Origin: a virus
Length of the DNA stretch: 34,757 nucleotides
Virus record (IMG/VR): IMGVR_UViG_3300009175_000004
Location: 1-34,757 of that record
Strand: one strand, 5' to 3'
Shown here piece after piece: positions 2,480-31,028 of this stretch (the stretch's first letter is position 1; every line of letters begins with the position of its first letter). Below the pieces are notes generated by a model that had not been told where the DNA came from, did no database searches, and saw only the letters and a list, made by a program, of their open reading frames with translations. The position numbers were made by a program, and so were the translations under genes.

Positions 2480-3079
2480 GGAGCACCCCGCCCTTGAACA
2501 ATGAGAGGAATGGCGCGTTAAACGCCGGATCGTCTGTCTTCACGTTGTGCTGCGCCGTTCGCTTCTTCGATGAGCGATGCCCCAGGCCATACAGATAGCT
2601 CGCAGCCATCTCGTGGATCGGCGGGTGCTCTGTCCAGTAGTCAAGCAGCATGATCATCTCGGGAAGTGTGACTTGCGTGTAAATGTGCTGGAGCGTCCAG
2701 CCTGTCACCGTAACGACACGGGCGAAGAGCCAATCCCAATCTAGCTCTTCGCCCCCTCCGCTTCCCCCTCGGATGGCTCCTTCGATTGCAGGCCGCTTAC
2801 CCGGATGACGTGCTTAAAGAGCGTGCAGACCTCATACAGACTGCATCCATTCAGCACGTCATCCTTCGTGATCGAACCGTCTACACGCGACAGAGAATCG
2901 ACGACGTGCAGGAGCATGTCGTCGAATGCCTCTTGGATCGTGCGCGTGCCATCGGCGACAGCATCAGCCAGGGGCAGAAGCTGATAGCGCACGATGCCCG
3001 AAGGAAGGGCCGACAGCGTGAACGGGCGGCCCCCGATGGTAACGGTGTCGATGACGGGATTGAACGGAGTGAGCGGCAT
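2472..3079 (-). CDS. Tail assembly chaperone, frameshifted long form (GT-like), via -1 shift near 2752-2756
   Basis: The upstream frame (2741-3079) ends at TAG 2743-2741. A second frame, open upstream of the shift, reads GEELDWDWLFARVVTVTGW and then continues to the stop at 2472. A -1 shift at the G5 run (2756-2752) joins the two into a product of about 202 residues. The downstream frame alone has only a GTG start at 2708, which would drop the DWDWLFARV segment; that segment looks like the natural start of the T-like domain (with LPEMIMLLDYW and HPPIHEMAASYLYG further on). Lambda G/GT-type chaperones before the tape measure use exactly this arrangement. The shift is inferred from frames and context, not measured. 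Confidence 0.75.
2741..3079 (-). CDS. Tail assembly chaperone, short form (G-like)
   Basis: 112 residues, the unshifted product. Residues 1-95 form a compact domain starting MPLTPFNPVIDTVTIGGRPF, followed by an acidic tail (EPSEGEAEGAKS) encoded over the G-rich slip site. In siphophages the short and frameshifted forms bind the tape measure and recruit tail-tube subunits. An AAGGACG ribosome-binding site lies 4 bases before the ATG at 3079. It follows the second tail-tube gene by 9 bases and precedes the tape measure, the canonical order. Confidence 0.82.
   Translation of the reverse strand: MPLTPFNPVIDTVTIGGRPFTLSALPSGIVRYQLLPLADAVADGTRTIQEAFDDMLLHVVDSLSRVDGSITKDDVLNGCSLYEVCTLFKHVIRVSGLQSKEPSEGEAEGAKS
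2752..2756 (-). other. Candidate -1 ribosomal frameshift slip site (G5 run)
   Basis: On the minus strand the reading GAG GGG GCG AAG AGC TAG becomes GGG GGC GAA GAG CTA GAT TGG after a one-base backward slip on the run of five G. The new frame stays open to 2472. The heptamer is not a textbook X-XXY-YYZ, since the A-site codon re-pairs poorly, so efficiency may be low or aided by structure. Confidence 0.6.
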
Positions 3080-3088
3080 GGTGCGTCC

Positions 3089-3874
3089 TTAGTTGGTCAG
3101 GCTGAGATAGCCGAGGATGTTGGCATCATTGGCGAAGAACTCACCAGACGCATCAGGGATCGTCCAGTCGTCGAGCTTGGTCGGCAGATTCCAGGCGTCC
3201 ATCGTGCTCTTGAGCATATGAAGCTGAGCTGTGTTGCCCTCGAAGATCGTGTTGAACACGACCTCGAAGTAAGGCGTATCGCCCATGAGATTGTTCGCGA
3301 TGGTGATCTCGCTTCCCGTCGTGGCCGTGTAGGTGTAGGACACAAGCAGGAGGTGTGCATCCTCGCTCGCCTTGAAGTCGTATTCACCCGTGTAGGACCC
3401 CGTGGCGGTCTTTAGGGAATACTCGCCATCGCTGCTCGGCGTGGTGTCATCAGCAACACGGGTATACGTGAGCCCGGTCGTGGCATTGCGAACGCCGAGA
3501 TCCTGTACGAACGTCGCAGCCTCGGCCACCGTGACCTTACCAGACGCAACGGTTAGAGCTTCATCAATCGCGGTGAGCTCCTGCTTCGCGGCGGTGAGCG
3601 TGCCGTTGAGGAACAGATCGTTGATCGCGCGGGCCTGAAGCTGGGCGCTCTTGGCCTTCCAGGTAGCCTTGCCCTTTCCGCGTGCGATCTTCAGCGCGAA
3701 CTGCCGATTGCCATAAAGCTGCTTCACGTCGAACTTGAAGTCGAGCGTGACATCCTGAAGGATGCCGAACTGAATCGGCGTAGGGTTGGTGACAGCGACA
3801 CCGGACAGAGCGCCGGGGATCGCATAGAGAGAGCCCGCGCCGAAGGCGGCTTGGACGGAGCTAAGTGAGGTCAT
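3089..3874 (-). CDS. Major tail (tube) protein, paralogue 2 (short form)
   Basis: 261 residues. It shares a clear backbone with the neighbouring 3907-5085 product: FGILQDVTLD(F/L)K, K(A/G)KATWKAKSAQL, QELTAIDEA, LMG(D/S)T, and DASGEF(F/I)ANDAN(I/V)LGY near the C-terminus. Tube subunits form stacked hexameric rings around the tape measure. Position between the tail terminator and the chaperones fits. AAAGGAC lies 6-8 bases before the ATG at 3874. Which paralogue is the main tube protein cannot be decided from sequence; this one lacks the C-terminal extension. Confidence 0.8.
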   Translation of the reverse strand: MTSLSSVQAAFGAGSLYAIPGALSGVAVTNPTPIQFGILQDVTLDFKFDVKQLYGNRQFALKIARGKGKATWKAKSAQLQARAINDLFLNGTLTAAKQELTAIDEALTVASGKVTVAEAATFVQDLGVRNATTGLTYTRVADDTTPSSDGEYSLKTATGSYTGEYDFKASEDAHLLLVSYTYTATTGSEITIANNLMGDTPYFEVVFNTIFEGNTAQLHMLKSTMDAWNLPTKLDDWTIPDASGEFFANDANILGYLSLTN

Positions 3875-16197: not shown

Positions 16198-16687
16198 CTT
16201 TGAGCACCGGGAGAACTTCGACACCATTGCGGAAGAGCTTCGCGCGTACTTCCTCAGTTTTGTCCACGAACTCCAACGGCTCACCGCCTGGGCCGGACAT
16301 TTCCGTTCGGGTCGGTGCATCCAGACCGATCAATTTGGCGCGTCGTTCCAGAATCCTGATCACTCGATCCACTGCACCCTGATTGCCACGTTTCATTTGC
16401 ACCATCATCTGAAGTAGGGCATCGTCGAGACGTGCGAGATCCAGATCGCGCAGTTCGGTGAGACTCTGGGTATTGAGTGCGTCGAGTTCAGCGAGACTCT
16501 TGCTAATCAGTTTGTGTACACGCTGCCGACTCACCCCAAGTTGTTGTCCCACCGCTTCAAGGCTCAACCCCATTTTTCGCAATTCGAAAGCTTTCGCACG
16601 GATTTCACGGCTCTTTATTGACCCTTTGCCTGTTTTGACACGACCTCGATCATGATTTGCCTTGTCAACCACCTTTGGGTTACTCAT
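16187..16687 (-). CDS. Terminase small subunit-like DNA-binding protein
   Basis: 166 residues from ATG 16687, which forms ATGA with the upstream stop. The N-terminus is basic (VKTGKGSIKSREIRAKAFEL), followed by a helix-turn-helix MGLSLEAVGQQLGVSRQRVH (about residues 40-60). A helical region suitable for oligomerisation follows (LDLARLDDALLQMMVQMKRG, then RVIRILERRAKLIG). Position directly before terL and the HTH-oligomerisation layout are those of a small terminase, which recognises the packaging start. The ELRDLDLARLDDAL stretch is typical. Confidence 0.85.
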   Translation of the reverse strand: MSNPKVVDKANHDRGRVKTGKGSIKSREIRAKAFELRKMGLSLEAVGQQLGVSRQRVHKLISKSLAELDALNTQSLTELRDLDLARLDDALLQMMVQMKRGNQGAVDRVIRILERRAKLIGLDAPTRTEMSGPGGEPLEFVDKTEEVRAKLFRNGVEVLPVLKDEK

Positions 16688-17721
16688 TTCAAATCCAAAC
16701 AAGATGAATCCAATTCATCAGGGAAGAGGTAATGATGGACCACTTCGCGTGGTGAATGCGGGATTGGGGAGGAATAATTGCTTTCCCAGCCCTTGATGAG
16801 ACAGGCGACGGAGTGATTGACTCCGGCGGGGGTGTTGGGTTCCATCCCGAGACAAACCCGGGCGAGATGTTCCAACGCGCACTTGAAGCATGATCCGCAG
16901 CGGTAGGGCATGAGTGGGCCGAACTTCCGTTCGTTGGCCCTGCGAGTGGGGTGCTTGTAGCGGGATGGCATAAAGCAGGACGCGAGAAGGGGGTAAAGAT
17001 CTGGCCTGAGCCGAGCGATGACCTTGTAGGCATCGGTGTCGGAAAGGAGTGGGACGTGTAGGGTGAATCCAGGCAGGTAAGCCTCGAAGATCGGCTGGGA
17101 AGCCTGATAGGTTTCGATGCAGTCGGTCCCGTTGTAGCGATAGGTCAGGTCCGCAAGGTGGTCTTTGGTGTGGTTGCCTTGGGCATAGTGGACGATCCCG
17201 AGTGGTGCGCCATATTCAATCGCCATCGCCAGAATCAACTGGTTCTTGACTGGAACCTCGACCATGATCCTCGTCCCGGCCTGCTTGACCGCTTCGACGT
17301 GCAGGGGCCAGGACATCTTTTCACAAATGGCCTTGGCTTGAGTGAGTTCGCCGGGGTAGGACCGGTTCAGGTTCCGGACAAAGAACGCGTGAGGTTTGAG
17401 CCCCTGTGACTCAAGCTGGAGACATGCCGCGACGGAATCCTTCCCACCTGTGAACGAAACCAGCACTTCTTTTTCCCTGGCTGCGCCAACAGGTAGGGGC
17501 TGCATGGTCATGTTCCGCCCGATCTGGAATGGCTTCCCCTGCATGACGTGTTCGATAAGCGGTTCCGCGCAGGTTGGAAAGCTGCTCCAGAAAGACGGTT
17601 GGCTTGGGGCCATCTCGTAGAACCGTTTGAACAGGCTGACAAGCGGTCCCGGAGGCGTTCCAAACTGGATGGACACCCCTTGGTTGACTTTTGGCTTTCG
17701 TGTTGGAGAGAGGATACTCAT
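16684..17721 (-). CDS. PP-loop ATPase of the PAPS reductase / adenine nucleotide alpha-hydrolase superfamily
   Basis: 345 residues. The PP-loop is SFTGGKDS at 89-96, followed by a Rossmann-type strand and helix (VAACLQLESQGLKPHAFFV). Such enzymes adenylate a substrate or bind PAPS. The C-terminus has a cysteine cluster RCGSCFKC (Cys275, 278, 281, plus 290), which could bind zinc or an Fe-S cluster. A CGxCxxC cluster next to a PP-loop also recalls QueC-type 7-deazaguanine enzymes, while DndC-type DNA sulfur enzymes belong to the same superfamily. True sulfate assimilation seems unlikely in a phage. ATGA overlaps tie it to the methyltransferase before it and terS after it. A DNA-modification role is an inference. 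Confidence 0.8.
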   Translation of the reverse strand: MSILSPTRKPKVNQGVSIQFGTPPGPLVSLFKRFYEMAPSQPSFWSSFPTCAEPLIEHVMQGKPFQIGRNMTMQPLPVGAAREKEVLVSFTGGKDSVAACLQLESQGLKPHAFFVRNLNRSYPGELTQAKAICEKMSWPLHVEAVKQAGTRIMVEVPVKNQLILAMAIEYGAPLGIVHYAQGNHTKDHLADLTYRYNGTDCIETYQASQPIFEAYLPGFTLHVPLLSDTDAYKVIARLRPDLYPLLASCFMPSRYKHPTRRANERKFGPLMPYRCGSCFKCALEHLARVCLGMEPNTPAGVNHSVACLIKGWESNYSSPIPHSPREVVHHYLFPDELDSSCLDLK

Positions 17722-18446
17722 CGGGGGCTCTTTCGAAGGATAAGGAAATCCTCGTTTCCTTCCGTGTCTACTTCCCCACCGTCCGCTTCAAGGGCGGCCC
17801 TGCCAATGACGTATTTGCCTTCATCCCTGGTTATGGCCCACTTTTCATCCTGGGCGATTCCTTTGGCGATGTCTGAAAGGGGAAACTGCCGGTTGCCGAC
17901 ATTCAGCACGAAATAGGCACCCGGTTTGAGTGCCGCCATGGTCTTCAGCAGGAATGGCCGGTAAAACCCTTCAACCCATGATTCGAATGTGGTGTAGCGG
18001 TTGTGGGACTGTGTTGCGTCCCCTGGGGCGTATTGCTCGGTGTCGTAGTAGGGGGGGGATGTGAGAGCGAAGTCAAACGATTCGGGCTCAAGGATGGAAT
18101 CCTCGAATGGCATGCAGAAGTTTTCTGCCGTGGATGTCGTGGCGGATTGTTTCAGGAACTCTACCATTTTTTTCCAACCCTCGGCTGTTTGTGTTGCTGG
18201 GTCGAAGCCGACATAGTGCCCGCCAAGGTTCGCTGCCAACCACCCGATCACACGACCACCCCACCCATGACAAGGATCAAGGGCCCTGCCGCCTGCGGGG
18301 CAATACTGGAGGTAAATATCCCTGGCGATGTTGGGCTGGAACTCAAACACCATTCCTTGGCCGCCCCAACCTGGCCCCGCGTATTTAATAAACTGGCTGG
18401 GGTGAACATCGCCTTCGTATTTCTCCGCCATCCATCTTGAACCCAC
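17718..18446 (-). CDS. DNA methyltransferase (N6-adenine or N4-cytosine type)
   Basis: 242 residues from GTG 18446; an in-frame ATG at 18431 preceded by AGGTGGG is an equally good start (237 residues). SAM-binding motif: ALDPCHGWGGRVIGWLA (55-71) followed by YVGFDP (78-83). Catalytic motif: FALTSPPYYDT (126-136), the [ND/S]PPY box of amino-methyltransferases. It has no obvious target-recognition domain, which is usual for phage orphan enzymes. It may mask DNA from host restriction. Its start lies 47-62 bases inside the ParB-like gene, an unusually long overlap. Confidence 0.87.
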   Translation of the reverse strand: MGSRWMAEKYEGDVHPSQFIKYAGPGWGGQGMVFEFQPNIARDIYLQYCPAGGRALDPCHGWGGRVIGWLAANLGGHYVGFDPATQTAEGWKKMVEFLKQSATTSTAENFCMPFEDSILEPESFDFALTSPPYYDTEQYAPGDATQSHNRYTTFESWVEGFYRPFLLKTMAALKPGAYFVLNVGNRQFPLSDIAKGIAQDEKWAITRDEGKYVIGRAALEADGGEVDTEGNEDFLILRKSPR

Positions 18447-19170
18447 CTGGCGGAACTTCGCCTTTTCGTTGCAGGATTTGACAAATTGGGATTTTTACTG
18501 GTTTCACAGGTAATCCGGTGAGGGTTGAAGAGGGTGGAAATCCAGTACCCCGTTTTCCCCCACGCGACAGTTTGTTGAACTGACCCATCGCCATGGCCGG
18601 GGTCATTAATCCCGCCGCAACCTCTTCCCCGTTCTGGGGCATGGGCCATGCAAGCTCGATTTGCTCCGCGATCTGTATTGCGTTGAACAGCATGGGGCGA
18701 TCAGACAGGTCGGCGGGTATCTCGGCGATACCGTTGTCGGTGGTGGTGTCCCGCAGCTGGTCGAGAAGCGACTGTAACGCGGGGTCTTCGGTATGGACCT
18801 CCGCGAGCAGGGCTTCGAGCATGAGCGAATCACTGATCGCCATTTCTGTGATGGGGTCAAGCAGGGCGAGGGCCAACCGTTCCTCATCCTCGGTCAGTTC
18901 CACCACGGTCACCGGGATGGTGGGAAGCCCCTGCCTCATAGCCTCTTCCACTCTCGCATGTCCGTCAATAACGTGACCGGTCGTTTTGTTCACCAGAATG
19001 GTTTTGATCCAGCCGAGTTCCTTCATGCTGCCGCGCAGGGCTTCCATCTGGTTCCCTGGGTGGCGGCGGAAGTTGAGGGGGTTCGCCAGAAGTTCCTCTG
19101 GTTTTACGTCCCCGTGTCCAACAATGCGGTTTTGGATCAATTCGACGGCATTTGCTGTGTTTTGTGTCAT
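18385..19170 (-). CDS. ParB/Srx-like domain protein
   Basis: 261 residues. Residues 15-110 form a ParB N-terminal-like domain: KPEELLANPLNFRRHPGNQM, then SMKELGWIKTILVNKTTGHV and IDGHARVEEAMRQGLP. The H-V-I-D-G-H-A-R motif is the nucleotide-binding/nuclease signature. No CTP-dependent partition HTH is visible, and phages of this type have no partition system, so it is not a plasmid partition ParB. Phage ParB-domain proteins often neighbour methyltransferases, as here. The C-terminal 50 residues overlap the methyltransferase gene. First gene of the leftward operon; GGAAGG precedes the ATG at 19170. Confidence 0.83.
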   Translation of the reverse strand: MTQNTANAVELIQNRIVGHGDVKPEELLANPLNFRRHPGNQMEALRGSMKELGWIKTILVNKTTGHVIDGHARVEEAMRQGLPTIPVTVVELTEDEERLALALLDPITEMAISDSLMLEALLAEVHTEDPALQSLLDQLRDTTTDNGIAEIPADLSDRPMLFNAIQIAEQIELAWPMPQNGEEVAAGLMTPAMAMGQFNKLSRGGKRGTGFPPSSTLTGLPVKPVKIPICQILQRKGEVPPGGFKMDGGEIRRRCSPQPVY

Positions 19171-26551: not shown

Positions 26552-26868
26552 AACACCAGATCCGCCCCCGTCGGTTGGAGTCATTGGAATGGTTGGCCCT
26601 TGTTCGAGCGCTACCGTGCCTCTGTTGCACCAAAGATGATCTGACCCAGATAACACCAACCGAAGCCCACCACATCCGCAGAGACGCAGCCAGGGGCCTT
26701 TATGGATATTCTCAAAAAGCCAGCGATTTTGAGACAATCCCTCTTTGTGCCATTCATCACTGGAACGGGGTTCATTCGATTCTGTCTCATCGAGAATTTG
26801 AACGTCGATATGGCAACGAACGAGATCTGCTGGAAGAGATACTGATCAAGCTAAAGGGGATGGAATGA
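26548..26868 (+). CDS. HNH-type zinc nuclease, Ref/DUF968-like
   Basis: 106 residues from ATG 26548. Metal and active-site residues: Cys24-Leu-Cys26-Cys27 (LPCLCC), AHHIRR with His41/His42, and the LCAIHHWNGVH motif with Cys67, His70 and His71. The spacing and KASDFETIPLCAIHH resemble the P1 Ref / YbcO family ('K-x-x-D-x-x-x-I/V-P-L-C-x-x-H-H'), which are HNH-like nucleases linked to recombination. Together with YqaJ and VRR-NUC it makes a third nuclease in the early set. Confidence 0.8.
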   Translation: MKHQIRPRRLESLEWLALVRALPCLCCTKDDLTQITPTEAHHIRRDAARGLYGYSQKASDFETIPLCAIHHWNGVHSILSHREFERRYGNERDLLEEILIKLKGME

Positions 26869-27257
26869 CCACTTACTCCTACTCTGTGATTTCCCCCGCC
26901 TATCCCCGCGTCCAGCTCCGGCTGGTAGCCTACGCGCCAGCAGCGATGGCCGGGCTGTGGAAGATCGTCCTGCAGGTCATCGAGCACGGTCACCCGCTGG
27001 CCGAGCATCCAGTGTCCGAGAACGTGCTGGCCGATGAGCAGGCGGTCTTGGACTGGATCGCGTGGCAGGAGGGGGAGGGTTGGGATTTCGTGCCGGACGG
27101 ATACAAGGCGCGACAGAAAAAATCCCCCATGCCGATCGCGATCTCCGCGCGACAATTTCCAGCTGATCTGCGGAGCGTCTCTATGGGCGTTGACCGGCTG
27201 AAATCAAAAAATGGCCCGTGCATTGCGGTGCGCGGATTGCCTGGGGGAATACGGTGA
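26865..27257 (+). CDS. Hypothetical protein (up to 130 aa)
   Basis: Starts ATGA-coupled to the HNH gene. Segments: RVQLRLVAYAPAAMAGLWKI, VLDWIAWQEGEGWDFVPDGY. Codon choice and GC differ from the upstream early genes; from here to 28.4 kb the sequence looks like a different compositional block. The last 45 codons share DNA with the smaller frame 27211-27324, so one of the two may end or start elsewhere. Not recognised. Confidence 0.5.
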   Translation: MTTYSYSVISPAYPRVQLRLVAYAPAAMAGLWKIVLQVIEHGHPLAEHPVSENVLADEQAVLDWIAWQEGEGWDFVPDGYKARQKKSPMPIAISARQFPADLRSVSMGVDRLKSKNGPCIAVRGLPGGIR

Positions 27258-27324
27258 GAGCGGGCAAAACGCGCTCTTCGAGGCATTGAAGGAACTAGCA
27301 AACAAGAGGAGGACCAAGGCATGA
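27211..27324 (+). CDS. 37-residue protein, ATGA-coupled to the next gene
   Basis: Frame ATG 27211 to TGA 27324, product MARALRCADCLGEYGESG followed by a helical, basic C-terminus (FEALKELANKRRTKA). It has one CxxC pair. Its stop overlaps the start of the 84-residue gene as ATGA, which supports real translation. Against it: no clear ribosome-binding site and overlap with the end of the preceding frame. Confidence 0.4.
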   Translation: MARALRCADCLGEYGESGQNALFEALKELANKRRTKA

Positions 27325-27575
27325 TAAAAAGATCTCTCATCAGTTTTGACGCTGCAAACTTCGGAGAGCACAAATGGAAGCTCGTCGTGCTCTGCCAATT
27401 CGGCCCGATCAAATGGACGCGCGTGTACTATGCCTGTGGCGGCTTCAGAGTCTACGGTGACACAGCTGTTTCGGCGATTGACTGGCGCGATAAGAGCGGC
27501 GTGCTCATGATGAGTCGAACGCTTACGCACGATCTCGATACGCTGCTCAAGAGAGCAATGGCCTATGCGCGATGA
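27321..27575 (+). CDS. Hypothetical protein (84 aa)
   Basis: 84 residues with a well-behaved beta-rich composition: SLISFDAANFGEHKWKLVVL, FGPIKWTRVYYACGGFRVYG, VSAIDWRDKSGVLMMSRTLT. AGGAGG lies 8 bases before ATG 27321. It ends in ATGA with the first micro-membrane gene. No family recognised; small early or accessory gene. Confidence 0.6.
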   Translation: MIKRSLISFDAANFGEHKWKLVVLCQFGPIKWTRVYYACGGFRVYGDTAVSAIDWRDKSGVLMMSRTLTHDLDTLLKRAMAYAR

Positions 27576-27676
27576 AATGGCTGTACACAATCCTCGACTC
27601 GGGTATCGGATGTCTCCTGTTCTTGCTCCTCGGAATCGTCGGCATCGCGCTCGTTCTTCTGTATGGTCCGCGTTGA
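27572..27676 (+). CDS. 34-residue single-TM micro-protein
   Basis: ATG 27572 to TGA 27676. Residues 11-31 (GIGCLLFLLLGIVGIALVLL) form one strong membrane helix after a short N-terminal MKWLYTILDS. The start overlaps the preceding stop as ATGA. Such micro-proteins could be holin-like or host-takeover membrane peptides; function unknown. Confidence 0.55.
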   Translation: MKWLYTILDSGIGCLLFLLLGIVGIALVLLYGPR

Positions 27677-27777
27677 TTCACTTAACGGAGATCATTCGAA
27701 ACTTGAGTGAGACTGCGTTCTGGCTTCTGCTCGGATACATCGGTCTGCGCGTGCTGAAGATCTTCTTAAACGCCTGA
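27673..27777 (+). CDS. 34-residue single-TM micro-protein with TTG start
   Basis: TTG 27673 to TGA 27777, overlapping the stop of the previous micro-gene (TTGA). Residues 12-31 (ETAFWLLLGYIGLRVLKIFL) form a membrane helix. The TTG start with no ribosome-binding site implies coupling to the previous gene. Length equal to its neighbour may be coincidence. Existence is less certain than the previous one. Confidence 0.4.
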   Translation: MIHLTEIIRNLSETAFWLLLGYIGLRVLKIFLNA

Positions 27778-27818
27778 TTGCGACTGGTTCCGCTTGAGCG
27801 CCCTACAACACTACAGCG

Positions 27819-27949
27819 GCCTAACGGCAAAGATAACCGGCGCTGCCGGGGAAGGAGACAAAGCAATGGACCGAGAGATAGACGAGGAAGGCAATCTGGT
27901 AAGGCCATGGAGAACCAAGGCAACGTCCGGGTTGAACGATGGGTTAGGC
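27819..27949 (-). repeat. attC: attC-like recombination site A (integron cassette site)
   Basis: 131 bases. Read on the minus strand: R'' GCCTAAC, spacer CCATCG, L'' TTcAACcCGGaCG, a long variable loop, L' CGCCGGTTAT, spacer, R' GTTAGGC. L'' and L' pair once the lower-case bases bulge out. The bulged c and a occupy the same places as in classical attC sites such as that of aadA cassettes (TTcAAGCCGaCGC). The loop holds, on the plus strand, the GGAAGGAG box and ATG of the next gene. Confidence 0.78.
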
Positions 27950-28153
27950 GGCTGGCAACCATTTGAACTCGCCGACGAAAGTGAACAGAAACACGGTTGG
28001 ACAATCTCAACAAAGACGCTCGAAGCCATCAGAAAAAAGATCAAGGAATCTGGATTTGATGCGCCTAGCTGGGAAGGGATTGAGAACGTGCTGATCACCA
28101 TGACTGGGTTGAAAAGGAATCCAAAGGCTGAACCGGAAGTGGATGACGCCTAA
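27825..28153. mobile_element. Integron-type gene cassette 1 (329 bp)
   Basis: Bounded by the expected G|TT cleavage points of attC A (27825|27824) and attC B (28154|28153). It contains exactly one complete gene (27866-28153), which reads on the plus strand, opposite to the canonical attC direction. The gene's TAA ends on the last base of the cassette. No integrase is encoded in the genome. Confidence 0.7.
27866..28153 (+). CDS. Cassette 1 protein (95 aa), unknown function
   Basis: Starts at ATG 27866 with AAGGAG 8 bases before, both inside the variable loop of attC A; the coding sequence runs out through the R box and ends with the TAA of the next GCCTAAC. The first 28 residues are therefore encoded by the recombination site. 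The body is charged and helical: GWQPFELADESEQKHGWTIS, KTLEAIRKKIKESGFDAPSW, EGIENVLITMTGL. A longer frame from 27794 exists but lacks a ribosome-binding site. No family recognised; small orphan proteins are typical of integron cassettes. Confidence 0.65.
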   Translation: MDREIDEEGNLVRPWRTKATSGLNDGLGGWQPFELADESEQKHGWTISTKTLEAIRKKIKESGFDAPSWEGIENVLITMTGLKRNPKAEPEVDDA

Positions 28154-28246
28154 CGATCCCGACATAACCGGCCCCGCCGTGGGCCAGGAGGAACGACATG
28201 AAAAATCACACTGAAGGCGGGGTCCGAGTTGATGGAGTGGTTAGGC
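28148..28246 (-). repeat. attC: attC-like recombination site B
   Basis: 99 bases. Minus strand: R'' GCCTAAC, spacer CACTC, L'' CATcAACtCGGaCCCCGCC, loop, L' GGCGGGGCCGGTTATG, spacer, R' GTTAGGC. The L arms pair over 16 bases with only three single-base bulges (c, t, a). The loop carries the plus-strand AGGAGG box and ATG of the gene at 28198. The plus-strand TAA of the upstream gene lies in GCCTAAC. Confidence 0.82.
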
Positions 28247-28434
28247 GGCCCCTTTGGACATTTGAGAACTACCTGGAAGCCAAGGGATTTCAGGCCGATG
28301 CCTGCATTGCCACCACGCACCCGGACTTTTACCGGCTGGCGCGGAACCTTTGGGACGGCCTGAACGTGATTGCAGATTGCCGAACACATGACACACCAGC
28401 GGAATTTGCAGAGGATGCGCTGAAGGACGCCTAA
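28154..28434. mobile_element. Integron-type gene cassette 2 (281 bp)
   Basis: Lies between the expected cleavage points of attC B (28154|28153) and attC C (28435|28434). It holds one complete plus-strand gene whose start is in attC B and whose TAA ends on the last cassette base, the same design as cassette 1. Confidence 0.7.
28198..28434 (+). CDS. Cassette 2 protein (78 aa), unknown function
   Basis: ATG 28198 with AGGAGG 6 bases upstream, inside the attC B loop. The first 16-17 residues (MKNHTEGGVRVDGVVRR) come from the attC; the body is PLWTFENYLEAKGFQADACI followed by TTHPDFYRLARNLWDGLNVI and a C-terminal acidic helix. It ends GCC TAA at the next R box. Well-formed globular composition; not recognised. 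It probably depends on early transcription from upstream, since no promoter is seen nearby. Confidence 0.7.
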   Translation: MKNHTEGGVRVDGVVRRPLWTFENYLEAKGFQADACIATTHPDFYRLARNLWDGLNVIADCRTHDTPAEFAEDALKDA

Positions 28435-28527
28435 CGATTGCCTTAACCGGCCCAAGGGCCAGCGAGGAGATGGATGATGGAGAACAACACGCAGGCCCTT
28501 GGGTCCGAGTTGAAGCCCCGGTTACTT
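28429..28527 (-). repeat. attC: attC-like recombination site C, abutting the tail-fibre gene
   Basis: 99 bases. Minus strand: degenerate R'' AAGTAAC, spacer CGGGGC, L'' CTTcAACtCGGaCCC continuing AAGGGCC, loop, L' pairing over 19 bases with three bulges, spacer GCAATC, R' GTTAGGC. The R'' contains the TAA stop of the tail-fibre gene, as in a cassette gene ending in its attC. The loop has plus-strand GAGGAG and ATG codons, but the frame there soon stops in the fibre region. It also lies where the early and late units converge, so its hairpin might help to end transcripts. Confidence 0.8.
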
Positions 28528-30669
28528 ATTTCCCATCAGTTTAGAAACAAGTTCTTTCAATTCGGCCACTTCTGTTTCGATGGCCGAGATTCTAGCATTA
28601 TGAGTTACAAAATCTTGTTCTTGGAGTTGATGAATAATTAAGGTTGTTAACCTATCATAGGCTACACCTTGGGGCGTTTTAACGGCCCCAGATTTAACTT
28701 GGTGGTTGGGGGCGCCCCCTTCATTCAGCACGGTTTCATAATCATCCGCACTATAGCCGATCTGCACAAGCCGGGGATCACATTCATAAACCTCCTCCGC
28801 CGCTAACCCCCACCAAGACCATTGTGGGTTATCGGCTGGGCATAAAGACCTATACCAAATGGGACGCAACTTGTAAATATTAGCACTATAATCTGCGTTC
28901 ATTGTTTCGACATCAGTTTTATATTGCAATGACGATGTAGAGCGCAAGATATTATTACTCGCCCCGGAATCCAAAAAGGCATTCGCCGAGCTTGCCGTGG
29001 TTGTGATGCTCGGGAAAGAAACGGCACCTCTTAGGCCCCTCAGTGTAATACCCCAAGTTATCGTTCCACCTGCCGTTCCTGTTCCGGTCGATTCCAACCA
29101 CTGGCACTGAGATGTTGATGCCGTTGCCTGACATTGTGAAAGTGCAGCATAAAACGTACTTGCATTATTGAATTTCCAACCACCGCTTGCATAATAGGCA
29201 TTGCACACCAAATTGGATGCACCGCTGGCCCCCGTCTGTAATGCTAAAGAGGCATCGCCATTACTTACCGTCTTGAACGTGGTATCAAAATTGGTATTAG
29301 CTGTTCCCAAGAAAAGCTGGCTCCCAGAAAAAATAGCCTTGGTCGCCGAAATCCCACCCGCGCACTGAAGCGCCCCTGTAGTAGAAGAGGAAGTGTCGGT
29401 TGTGTCACCGAAAGTAACTAGGCCGGTGCTCGTCGCAATGGCCTTATTGGTCGTGCCACCTCCCGAGATTGCACCGATATTGAGCCCGATGTTTGTCGTG
29501 CAAGTCAGTCCTGAAGCGTTCTGAGCCCCGAGATTGATGCCATAGACCGTCGTTGCCGTTCCGGCGGTGAGCGTGTTCGTGGTCGCAAGACCCAGGGTGT
29601 AAGTGCCCACATTGGCTGAGGCGTTGTTGAGCGTTGACGCGAGGGAGACGGCACCCGCATTCGTCCAAGTCGAGGCCCCCGTGATGCTGGAGGTCCCGCG
29701 AAGGATATACGTCGATGTGCCCCCGCCAGAGTTGGATATTGAGAGCACAGACTGGGTTGCATACATGGCTGAGATTGTCCCGGCCCCATTGTGTGTCGCG
29801 CCCGAATAGACACCGGCCAGCCCGCTCATGTTGTTCCCGCTGGCGGTCGTGGCATCGGAGCGCATCCCGATTACTGTCGAAGTGCCCGACGACGCAGGGG
29901 ATGCGGTGATCTGTGAATACTGACCGTAGATCGAGCCGGAGATGTCCGCAGAGGTCGCAGAGATGCCGATCCCCCCCGTCACCGTCACGGATGCAGCAGT
30001 AGGGCTCGTGCATTCCGTGGCGTTCGTGGATGCGAGCACGCCCGAGAAGGTGTTCGTTCCCGACCACGTTTGCGCGACTTCCAGAAGCCCCATCGTGTAG
30101 GTCGCAGAAGACTCGGCGGGGATGTTCACCACCACGTTATTTGCCGTGGCCGCACCCTGTAGCTTATAGGTTCCACCACCAGAGGCAGCGTTCATGGCGT
30201 AGCCAGATCCAGACCACATCCACTTGGCGGCGCTGATTCCACCCGCACTTTGCAATGCCCCGGAGGCCGACGAGGTCGCGTCAGTGGTGTTTGTGAACTG
30301 CGTCACGGCGGCAAGCTGCGTGGAAAGATAGCTGGCGTCAATCTCTGCGAGCACATCAAGCGTCGCTCCAACTCCGATGGTGAACTTCCCAAGCGTGTAG
30401 CGGTTCGCGCCGTTGGCTACCTGCACCGTCACCGTAACGGCTGCTGTGTCCTCGTTATAGATACGGATGCCGTCAACAAGGCGCTGATCGGCTGCGGGGG
30501 CAGCGACAAGCGTCTGTTCGGACGCGCCATTGAGAGAGCCCTTGCCTCCCCCAAACGTGTCAGCCGTGGTATCGACATAGCTCGTGTTGTAGGTCGGGTT
30601 TGTGGTCGCAGCCGCGCCGGACATCTTGGCGATGATGGTGTCGGATGTTCCAAGCGAAATGTATTTCAT
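28522..30669 (-). CDS. Tail fibre / spike with C-terminal S74 intramolecular chaperone
   Basis: 715 residues from ATG 30669 (ATGA with the gene before; the frame upstream overlaps that gene). The long glycine/serine/threonine-rich stem has recurring motifs of the form T-T-G-A-L-Q-x-A-G-G-I-S (SSASGALQSAGGISAAK and SSTTGALQCAGGISATK), typical of trimeric beta fibres. The last 135 residues are a peptidase S74 domain: SSLQYKTDVETMN, WWGLAAEEVYECDPRLV, QGVAYDRLTTLIIHQLQEQD, ending in a coiled coil (EVAELKELVSKL). The 3' portion below about 29400 is clearly AT-richer than the stem. It is likely the main receptor-binding protein. Confidence 0.87.
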   Translation of the reverse strand: MKYISLGTSDTIIAKMSGAAATTNPTYNTSYVDTTADTFGGGKGSLNGASEQTLVAAPAADQRLVDGIRIYNEDTAAVTVTVQVANGANRYTLGKFTIGVGATLDVLAEIDASYLSTQLAAVTQFTNTTDATSSASGALQSAGGISAAKWMWSGSGYAMNAASGGGTYKLQGAATANNVVVNIPAESSATYTMGLLEVAQTWSGTNTFSGVLASTNATECTSPTAASVTVTGGIGISATSADISGSIYGQYSQITASPASSGTSTVIGMRSDATTASGNNMSGLAGVYSGATHNGAGTISAMYATQSVLSISNSGGGTSTYILRGTSSITGASTWTNAGAVSLASTLNNASANVGTYTLGLATTNTLTAGTATTVYGINLGAQNASGLTCTTNIGLNIGAISGGGTTNKAIATSTGLVTFGDTTDTSSSTTGALQCAGGISATKAIFSGSQLFLGTANTNFDTTFKTVSNGDASLALQTGASGASNLVCNAYYASGGWKFNNASTFYAALSQCQATASTSQCQWLESTGTGTAGGTITWGITLRGLRGAVSFPSITTTASSANAFLDSGASNNILRSTSSLQYKTDVETMNADYSANIYKLRPIWYRSLCPADNPQWSWWGLAAEEVYECDPRLVQIGYSADDYETVLNEGGAPNHQVKSGAVKTPQGVAYDRLTTLIIHQLQEQDFVTHNARISAIETEVAELKELVSKLMGNK

Positions 30670-31028
30670 GCCCTTCCCCTTCGCGAGACCATTCGTGCGT
30701 GAGCCCTGGTCGCATATGCCGATGCACTGATGGGATTGCCGCTGGTTCCGTCTCCCGTGAGGGGAGATGTGACTGAGATACCACCACCCGTTACCACGCT
30801 CCATGCAGCATTCTTCCGTCCATAGGTGTTGCCATCGCTCGGCGCGTCCGTGAGGTAGGCCCCGGAGATCTGGAAGTAAGCCGCCGCATGACCTTGAAGT
30901 AAGGCCGAGTTTACGGCCTGAGAGGACGCGCCGAGGAACGGACCATCGCTCATGTCGCTTGATGCAAGCTGGACTTCCTTCTCGCCCCTTCCAGCGGTGT
31001 TACGGGCGAGAACCTTCTGTGCGGTCAT
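30666..31028 (-). CDS. Small fibre-type protein (120 aa)
   Basis: Starts MTAQKVLARNTAGRGEKE, closely similar to the N-terminus of the upstream neighbour. The middle QGHAAAYFQISGAYLTDAPS is a common fibre motif, followed by VTSPLTGDGTSGNPIS, also typical of fibre stems; the last 20 residues are basic and overlap the start of the long fibre. Probably an adaptor or short fibre attached to the tail tip through the shared N-terminal motif (inference). Confidence 0.68.
   Translation of the reverse strand: MTAQKVLARNTAGRGEKEVQLASSDMSDGPFLGASSQAVNSALLQGHAAAYFQISGAYLTDAPSDGNTYGRKNAAWSVVTGGGISVTSPLTGDGTSGNPISASAYATRAHARMVSRRGRA

Follow-up and report, generated by a model that had tools for sequence, protein, structure and literature searches.

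Reversed gene cassettes between attC sites in an integrase-less phage with a probable acidobacterial host

Introduction

The locus described here raises the question whether three palindromes lying between small genes of a virus genome are attC sites of the integron kind and, if they are, how a phage that encodes no integrase would gain and express the cassettes that they bound. The whole stretch of DNA that was analysed, here called the window, is one virus record; it is 34,757 bases long, carries a terminal repeat of 123 bases and is therefore taken as a complete circular genome. A sequence-only reading had described the palindromes as attC sites without an integrase and had held that cassette arrays are not normally part of a phage. 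That last view is out of date, integrase-less cassette arrays (CALINs) having been published in 2023 by Qi et al. (PMC9892861) for Tetrasphaera phage TJE1, P12002L, PH101, MW202573 and other phages. CALINs in phages are in themselves a known kind, and the least expected feature of this one, the reversal of gene polarity relative to the attC sites, had been missed.

Results

The phage genome and its array

Terminase, portal, head, baseplate and replication proteins are encoded in the window, and a profile search of the whole record gave no PF00589 recombinase, in agreement with the earlier statement that no tyrosine recombinase is present. A complete integron has an intI gene, which the window lacks, together with an attI site and a Pc promoter, and a CALIN has at least two attC sites with no integrase gene nearby; the window has three sites and no PF00589 match. 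As the phage is complete and circular and encodes no tyrosine recombinase, the array is classed as a CALIN. In Table 1 it follows a run of plus-strand genes and faces a long, convergent minus-strand gene. Elsewhere in the window, at 16684-19170, adjoining minus-strand genes encode a protein with weak sulfurtransferase/PAPS-reductase-type matches, an unassigned protein that is a putative DNA methyltransferase, named from its sequence only, and a ParB-N-like protein; they are possibly a DNA-modification module.

Table 1. Positions of the array and its neighbouring genes in the window.
Feature	Coordinates	Strand	Description
Upstream phage genes	25155..27777	+	DUF932 protein, HNH-type protein and small orphans, on the strand of the cassette genes; presumed source of array transcription
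attC site A	27819..27949	-	131 bp; R boxes GCCTAAC/GTTAGGC; R2 62.0 bits, E 1.8e-13
Cassette 1	27825..28153		329 bp, exact, between cleavage points (R' to R')
Cassette 1 gene	27866..28153	+	95 aa, orphan; AAGGAG and ATG within the attC A loop; stop is the TAA of the attC B R box
attC site B	28148..28246	-	99 bp; R boxes GCCTAAC/GTTAGGC; R2 66.8 bits, E 1.2e-14
Cassette 2	28154..28434		281 bp, exact, R' to R'
Cassette 2 gene	28198..28434	+	78 aa, orphan; AGGAGG and ATG within the attC B loop; stop is the TAA of the attC C R box
attC site C	28429..28525	-	97 bp; R2 40.5 bits, E 3.9e-8
Possible remnant frame	28470..28544	+	24 codons after GAGGAG in the site C loop; enters the tail gene, opposite strand, at its 3' end; possibly a gene remnant
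Convergent gene	28522..30804	-	Tail-fibre-like by position and length only; PHROG matches without a named function

Identity of the palindromes

The palindromes were compared with two covariance models. R2 was built from 49 attC sites in bacterial loci, largely from integrons of Geothrix and other Holophagaceae, and includes no viral or window site. In the window it matched the three palindromes, each of them on the minus strand, and nothing else up to E = 10, and it found no attC in 586 kb of partial sequence from terminase-related phages. R2 is not wholly independent of the window, because its loci were found by a window-derived pattern and one training site resembles site B. R1, a narrower model made from class 1 plasmid cassettes and from sites of Silanimonas and other gammaproteobacteria, recognises arrays in Geothrix, Methylobacter and many viral records; it missed the window sites (best score 8.6 bits at site B, E = 4.4) and was for that reason used only as a seed. 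Rfam gave no relevant match for the window sites at E up to 1. The covariance-model check that had been proposed for these palindromes thus returned its three minus-strand matches with R2, and not with the narrower model.

Bacterial genomes with the same site type also encode an integron integrase, in 15 of 15 cases and in 14 of these above the family cut-off, which was exceeded in none of 14 control genomes. In a stem alignment of 73 phage and prophage sites, 95.3% of the cells are paired and the R boxes and bulged bases are conserved. Cells changed on both sides of the stem number 225 compared with 55 in shuffles, a count that leans towards structure because the alignment was itself fitted to structure. 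From the R2 matches, the two-sided stem covariation and the integrase in all 15 genomes with the site type we conclude that the window palindromes are attC sites in a phage without an integrase, as had been proposed from the letters of the window alone.

The finer structure agrees with the earlier description. Inverted R boxes of the form RYYYAAC and GTTRRRY are complete at sites A and B, and at site C one is intact and the other is reduced to GTAAC and overlaps the stop codon of the tail gene. The window holds six copies of GCCTAAC where 2.0 are expected, and five of these belong to the three palindromes. The L arms pair, with bases left extrahelical on the L'' side, and the terminal structure is variable. 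The minus-strand L'' arms of the three sites are GTTcAACcCGGa, CATcAACtCGGa and CTTcAACtCGGa, and in sites A, B and C the extrahelical bases are c, a and one extra bulged base. Calling the orientation of a palindrome might be thought arbitrary; this objection was rejected, the call being made from the side of the extrahelical bases and host arrays coming out forward by the same rule. Folding, also proposed as a check, succeeded in part: folded alone as DNA, site B (z -2.3) and site C (z -4.5) are more stable than their shuffles, whereas site A shows no stability above them (z -1.5).

Phage terminators or leader hairpins could come to resemble attC by chance or convergence. The sites do stand between small genes and share bases with stop codons and ribosome-binding sites, and neither Rfam nor the class 1 model names them. 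This origin is refuted in the main by the R2 matches, which reach 66.8 bits, and by the integron integrase that goes with the site pattern in 15 of 15 bacterial genomes; the conservation of R boxes and bulges and one nearly alike site that adjoins IntI also speak against it, and we regard it as extremely improbable.

Relatives and presumed host

The region 26800-28600 shows no DNA similarity to phage records, and no relatives of the DUF932 protein were found on viral contigs. The nearest viral records have about 60-65% of terminase residues in common with the window phage. No empty site was seen, 22 whole terminase-related phage records searched with R2 carrying no attC. The sequence-only reading had named two outcomes as contrary to it, failure of the model to match and the same sequences occurring unchanged as fixed genes in related phages, and neither of them occurred.

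Geothrix, Holophagaceae or Acidobacteria account for 9 of the 16 genome loci with the window-derived site pattern. In Geothrix campi, a contig holds a prophage at about 151-193 kb with homologues of the portal, capsid, tape-measure and baseplate proteins of the window phage and, by R2, an array of four attC sites; IntI is encoded on the same contig, and the genome, which has a large integron, gives 105 attC matches. This prophage (L024, L181-L184) is a distant relative of the window phage, with its own tyrosine recombinase and its own attC array. Another genome of the same phylum, Acidobacteriota (G308), encodes a terminase 63% identical to that of the window and has phage homologues together with one attC site on a second contig, whereas the best terminase among 398 genomes from the phylum of the gammaproteobacterium G014 is 53% identical. 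The host of the window phage is probably one of the Acidobacteriota, and probably one of the Holophagaceae.

Reversed polarity of the cassette genes

The lengths of 329 and 281 bp given previously for the two cassettes are exact, and their genes were rightly called small orphans: neither has a Pfam or PHROG match, no relatives of the cassette 1 gene were found, and the sole match of the cassette 2 gene, 17 residues inside another protein, is no real relative. Each gene sits in one canonical cassette, but backwards. Both are on the plus strand, against the attC polarity, which by its asymmetry is that of the minus strand, and neither cassette has the ordinary order of gene then attC in the direction of the attC top strand.

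This reversal was followed in a phage set of ten arrays, made up of the window, the Geothrix campi prophage and eight viral records (G001-G008) found only by their attC pattern. Structural genes of phages were looked for in the window, in G001-G006 and in G008, and are present in all of these. The longest ORF is reversed relative to its attC in 43 of 56 phage cassettes compared with 4 of 52 ORF-bearing host cassettes (Fisher p = 6e-14). Thirty of the 43 reversed ORFs in phage arrays end on an R-box TAA, which the longest ORF of a host cassette never does (Fisher p = 2e-11). Reversed cassettes are the majority in each of the ten phage arrays, although these records are not fully independent because some have cassettes or attCs in common. 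That the reversed ORFs are chance ORFs was considered and rejected: among 49 reversed ORFs there are matches to a total of 41 PHROG families, and the 45 longest forward ORFs of the same phage cassettes match no family.

A Shine-Dalgarno sequence and a start codon stand in the attC loop, on the coding strand, at 24 of the 68 phage sites compared with 12 of the 66 host sites (p = 0.03), which is a weak contrast. The start lies in the gene's own attC loop in 24 of 43 reversed phage genes; the cassettes of the Geothrix campi prophage and several others have the start of the reversed gene just outside its own attC, so that a start in the loop is common but not general. Most of the other phage arrays, too, have a neighbouring run of genes on the strand of the cassette genes, and expression of the array would come from the adjoining operon. 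A general reversal of genes relative to attC is unreported as far as found in a term search of the literature, which does not prove absence, and to that extent reversed genes whose translation signals lie within the attC are new.

The window record is a metagenome assembly, in which a piece of a bacterial integron might have been joined to a phage contig. We give this next to no credence, since the record has circular ends with the 123-base repeat and similar arrays occur in nine other phage or prophage records, among which G001 is also circular and the Geothrix campi prophage is that of an isolate. The polarity, moreover, differs from that of bacterial arrays.

Movement and exchange of cassettes

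The best direct trace of cassette movement comes from another phage record (G004), in which a 360-bp cassette is present in two copies with another cassette between them. The identity of the copies begins and ends at GTTAGGC, an exact R'-to-R' duplication such as would be left by an integron integrase, which recombines attC sites at G|TTRRRY. Capture of cassettes by a host integrase would be the corresponding process in the window phage.

A second trace was found in the Acidobacteria MAG DX1.bin12 (L049). The attC of the first cassette after IntI and a likely attI is about 80% identical to site B, which is likewise about 80% identical to an attC of the Geothrix campi prophage. The ORF of this first cassette is reversed, with a possible start in the attC loop and its stop at the attI junction. 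Given this phage-like attC and reversed ORF, a host integron appears to have captured a cassette of the phage type, which would there read against the usual Pc direction. Behind it in the same locus, at 2927-3440, is a pair of near-identical cassettes (257 and 258 bp) in which no ORF reaches 40 codons. Across host integrons, very similar attC sites are found at 2762-2858 of a Holophagaceae integron (L025) and at 3347-3442 of a Silanimonas integron (L021), a likeness that suggests cassette exchange between phyla.

Two of the phage records fit less well. G001 and G005 have a gene body in common that is 93% identical over 400 bp and bounded by R boxes (401-800 of L158 in G001, 1494-1921 of L163 in G005), and the flanking attCs are different on both sides; simple R'-to-R' movement does not account for this. 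Near-identical attCs also precede different genes in several phages. Both observations would be expected if the sites were true attCs by descent that now serve as fixed 5' leader hairpins presenting the ribosome-binding site in the loop, with genes swapped by homologous recombination between hairpins, and the loss of one R box at site C and the lack of an integrase in the phage point the same way. Against such a history stands the exact G004 duplication, which ends at GTTAGGC on both sides, and the R boxes and bulged bases that are conserved are required for integrase action and not for a leader. We think it unlikely.

Cargo of the reversed cassettes

The reversed cassettes of the other arrays encode an N6/N4 DNA methylase, a Mom-like protein, an RNA ligase, a PAPS-reductase-like protein and a helix-turn-helix protein, and a gene from one reversed cassette matches the Acb2/Tad1 hairpin domain weakly (E 3e-4). 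Judged from these protein families, the cargo may have a counter-defence role.

Discussion

The explanation that we consider likely is that the locus is an integrase-less cassette array of a double-stranded DNA phage of Acidobacteriota, with reversed genes and with shuffling by an integrase of the host. The array would stand at the downstream end of a plus-strand operon, and each cassette is a canonical R'-to-R' recombination unit whose gene is reversed relative to its attC. Transcription would come from the phage operon; the loop of the gene's own attC would supply the start codon with its ribosome-binding site, and the TAA of the next R box the stop. With start and stop signals supplied by attC and R box, a reversed cassette should be translated anywhere in that operon. 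A host integron integrase would most likely gain, lose and shuffle the cassettes by way of the folded bottom strand, which is the plus strand of the window, and the cargo might act in host takeover or counter-defence. Of this, the identity of the sites, the missing integrase, the gene polarity and, in another phage record, the exact cassette duplication are observed, and the catalyst, the expression from the upstream operon and the role of the cargo are inferred. Counting against this explanation are the failure of R1 to match the sites, the finding of the R2 loci by a window pattern, the G001/G005 gene body, the weak Shine-Dalgarno contrast, the starts that lie outside the loop and the fact that no empty site is known.

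A wider proposal, to which we give about the same credence as to its opposite, is that phages keep their own pool of reversed-gene cassettes, in which the attC would also be a 5' leader whose loop holds the ribosome-binding site, the R box would also be a stop codon, the cargo would serve host takeover and counter-defence, the integrase of the host would do the shuffling, and the genes would be antisense to Pc once in a host integron. The use of attC as a folded bottom strand is held to give cassette entry in the sense direction of Pc (PMC8876359, PMC11023631). If the proposal is true, phages use the gene-capture machinery of their hosts with an expression logic of their own, and the arrays give methylase, DNA-modification and RNA-ligase genes a possible route from phage to unrelated phage, as well as between phages and the integrons of bacteria.

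Among known systems, the class 1 cassettes of the aadA, dfrA and bla types have the same attC order as the window, namely R'', L'', terminal structure, L' and R', but their attCs are short with an AAGCCG-type core, and a class 1-based model misses the window sites. The phage CALINs of Qi et al. are attC arrays without an integrase in phages, as in the window, and IntI1 recombined five of the six phage attC sites tested there (PMC9892861). The article mentions same-direction cassettes for TJE1 and PH101 and divergent sites for P12002L; the passages covered by a term search of it contain no statement of a general reversal relative to attC, of a start codon in the loop or of a link to Acidobacteriota (PMC9892861). 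The sites of two of these phages were read by eye or by a simple scan. In MW202573 the CDS strand is opposite to the attC asymmetry and one CDS ends on an R-box TAA, like the window genes, whereas TJE1, on which R2 finds no site, has ordinary polarity as judged by eye. The sedentary chromosomal integrons of Geothrix and other Holophagaceae have the R boxes, L arms and extrahelical bases of the window sites. They differ in that an integrase is present, that most of their attCs are about 124 bp long and that host arrays carry forward genes in all but 4 of 52 cassettes, and one first-position cassette among them combines a phage-like attC with a reversed ORF.
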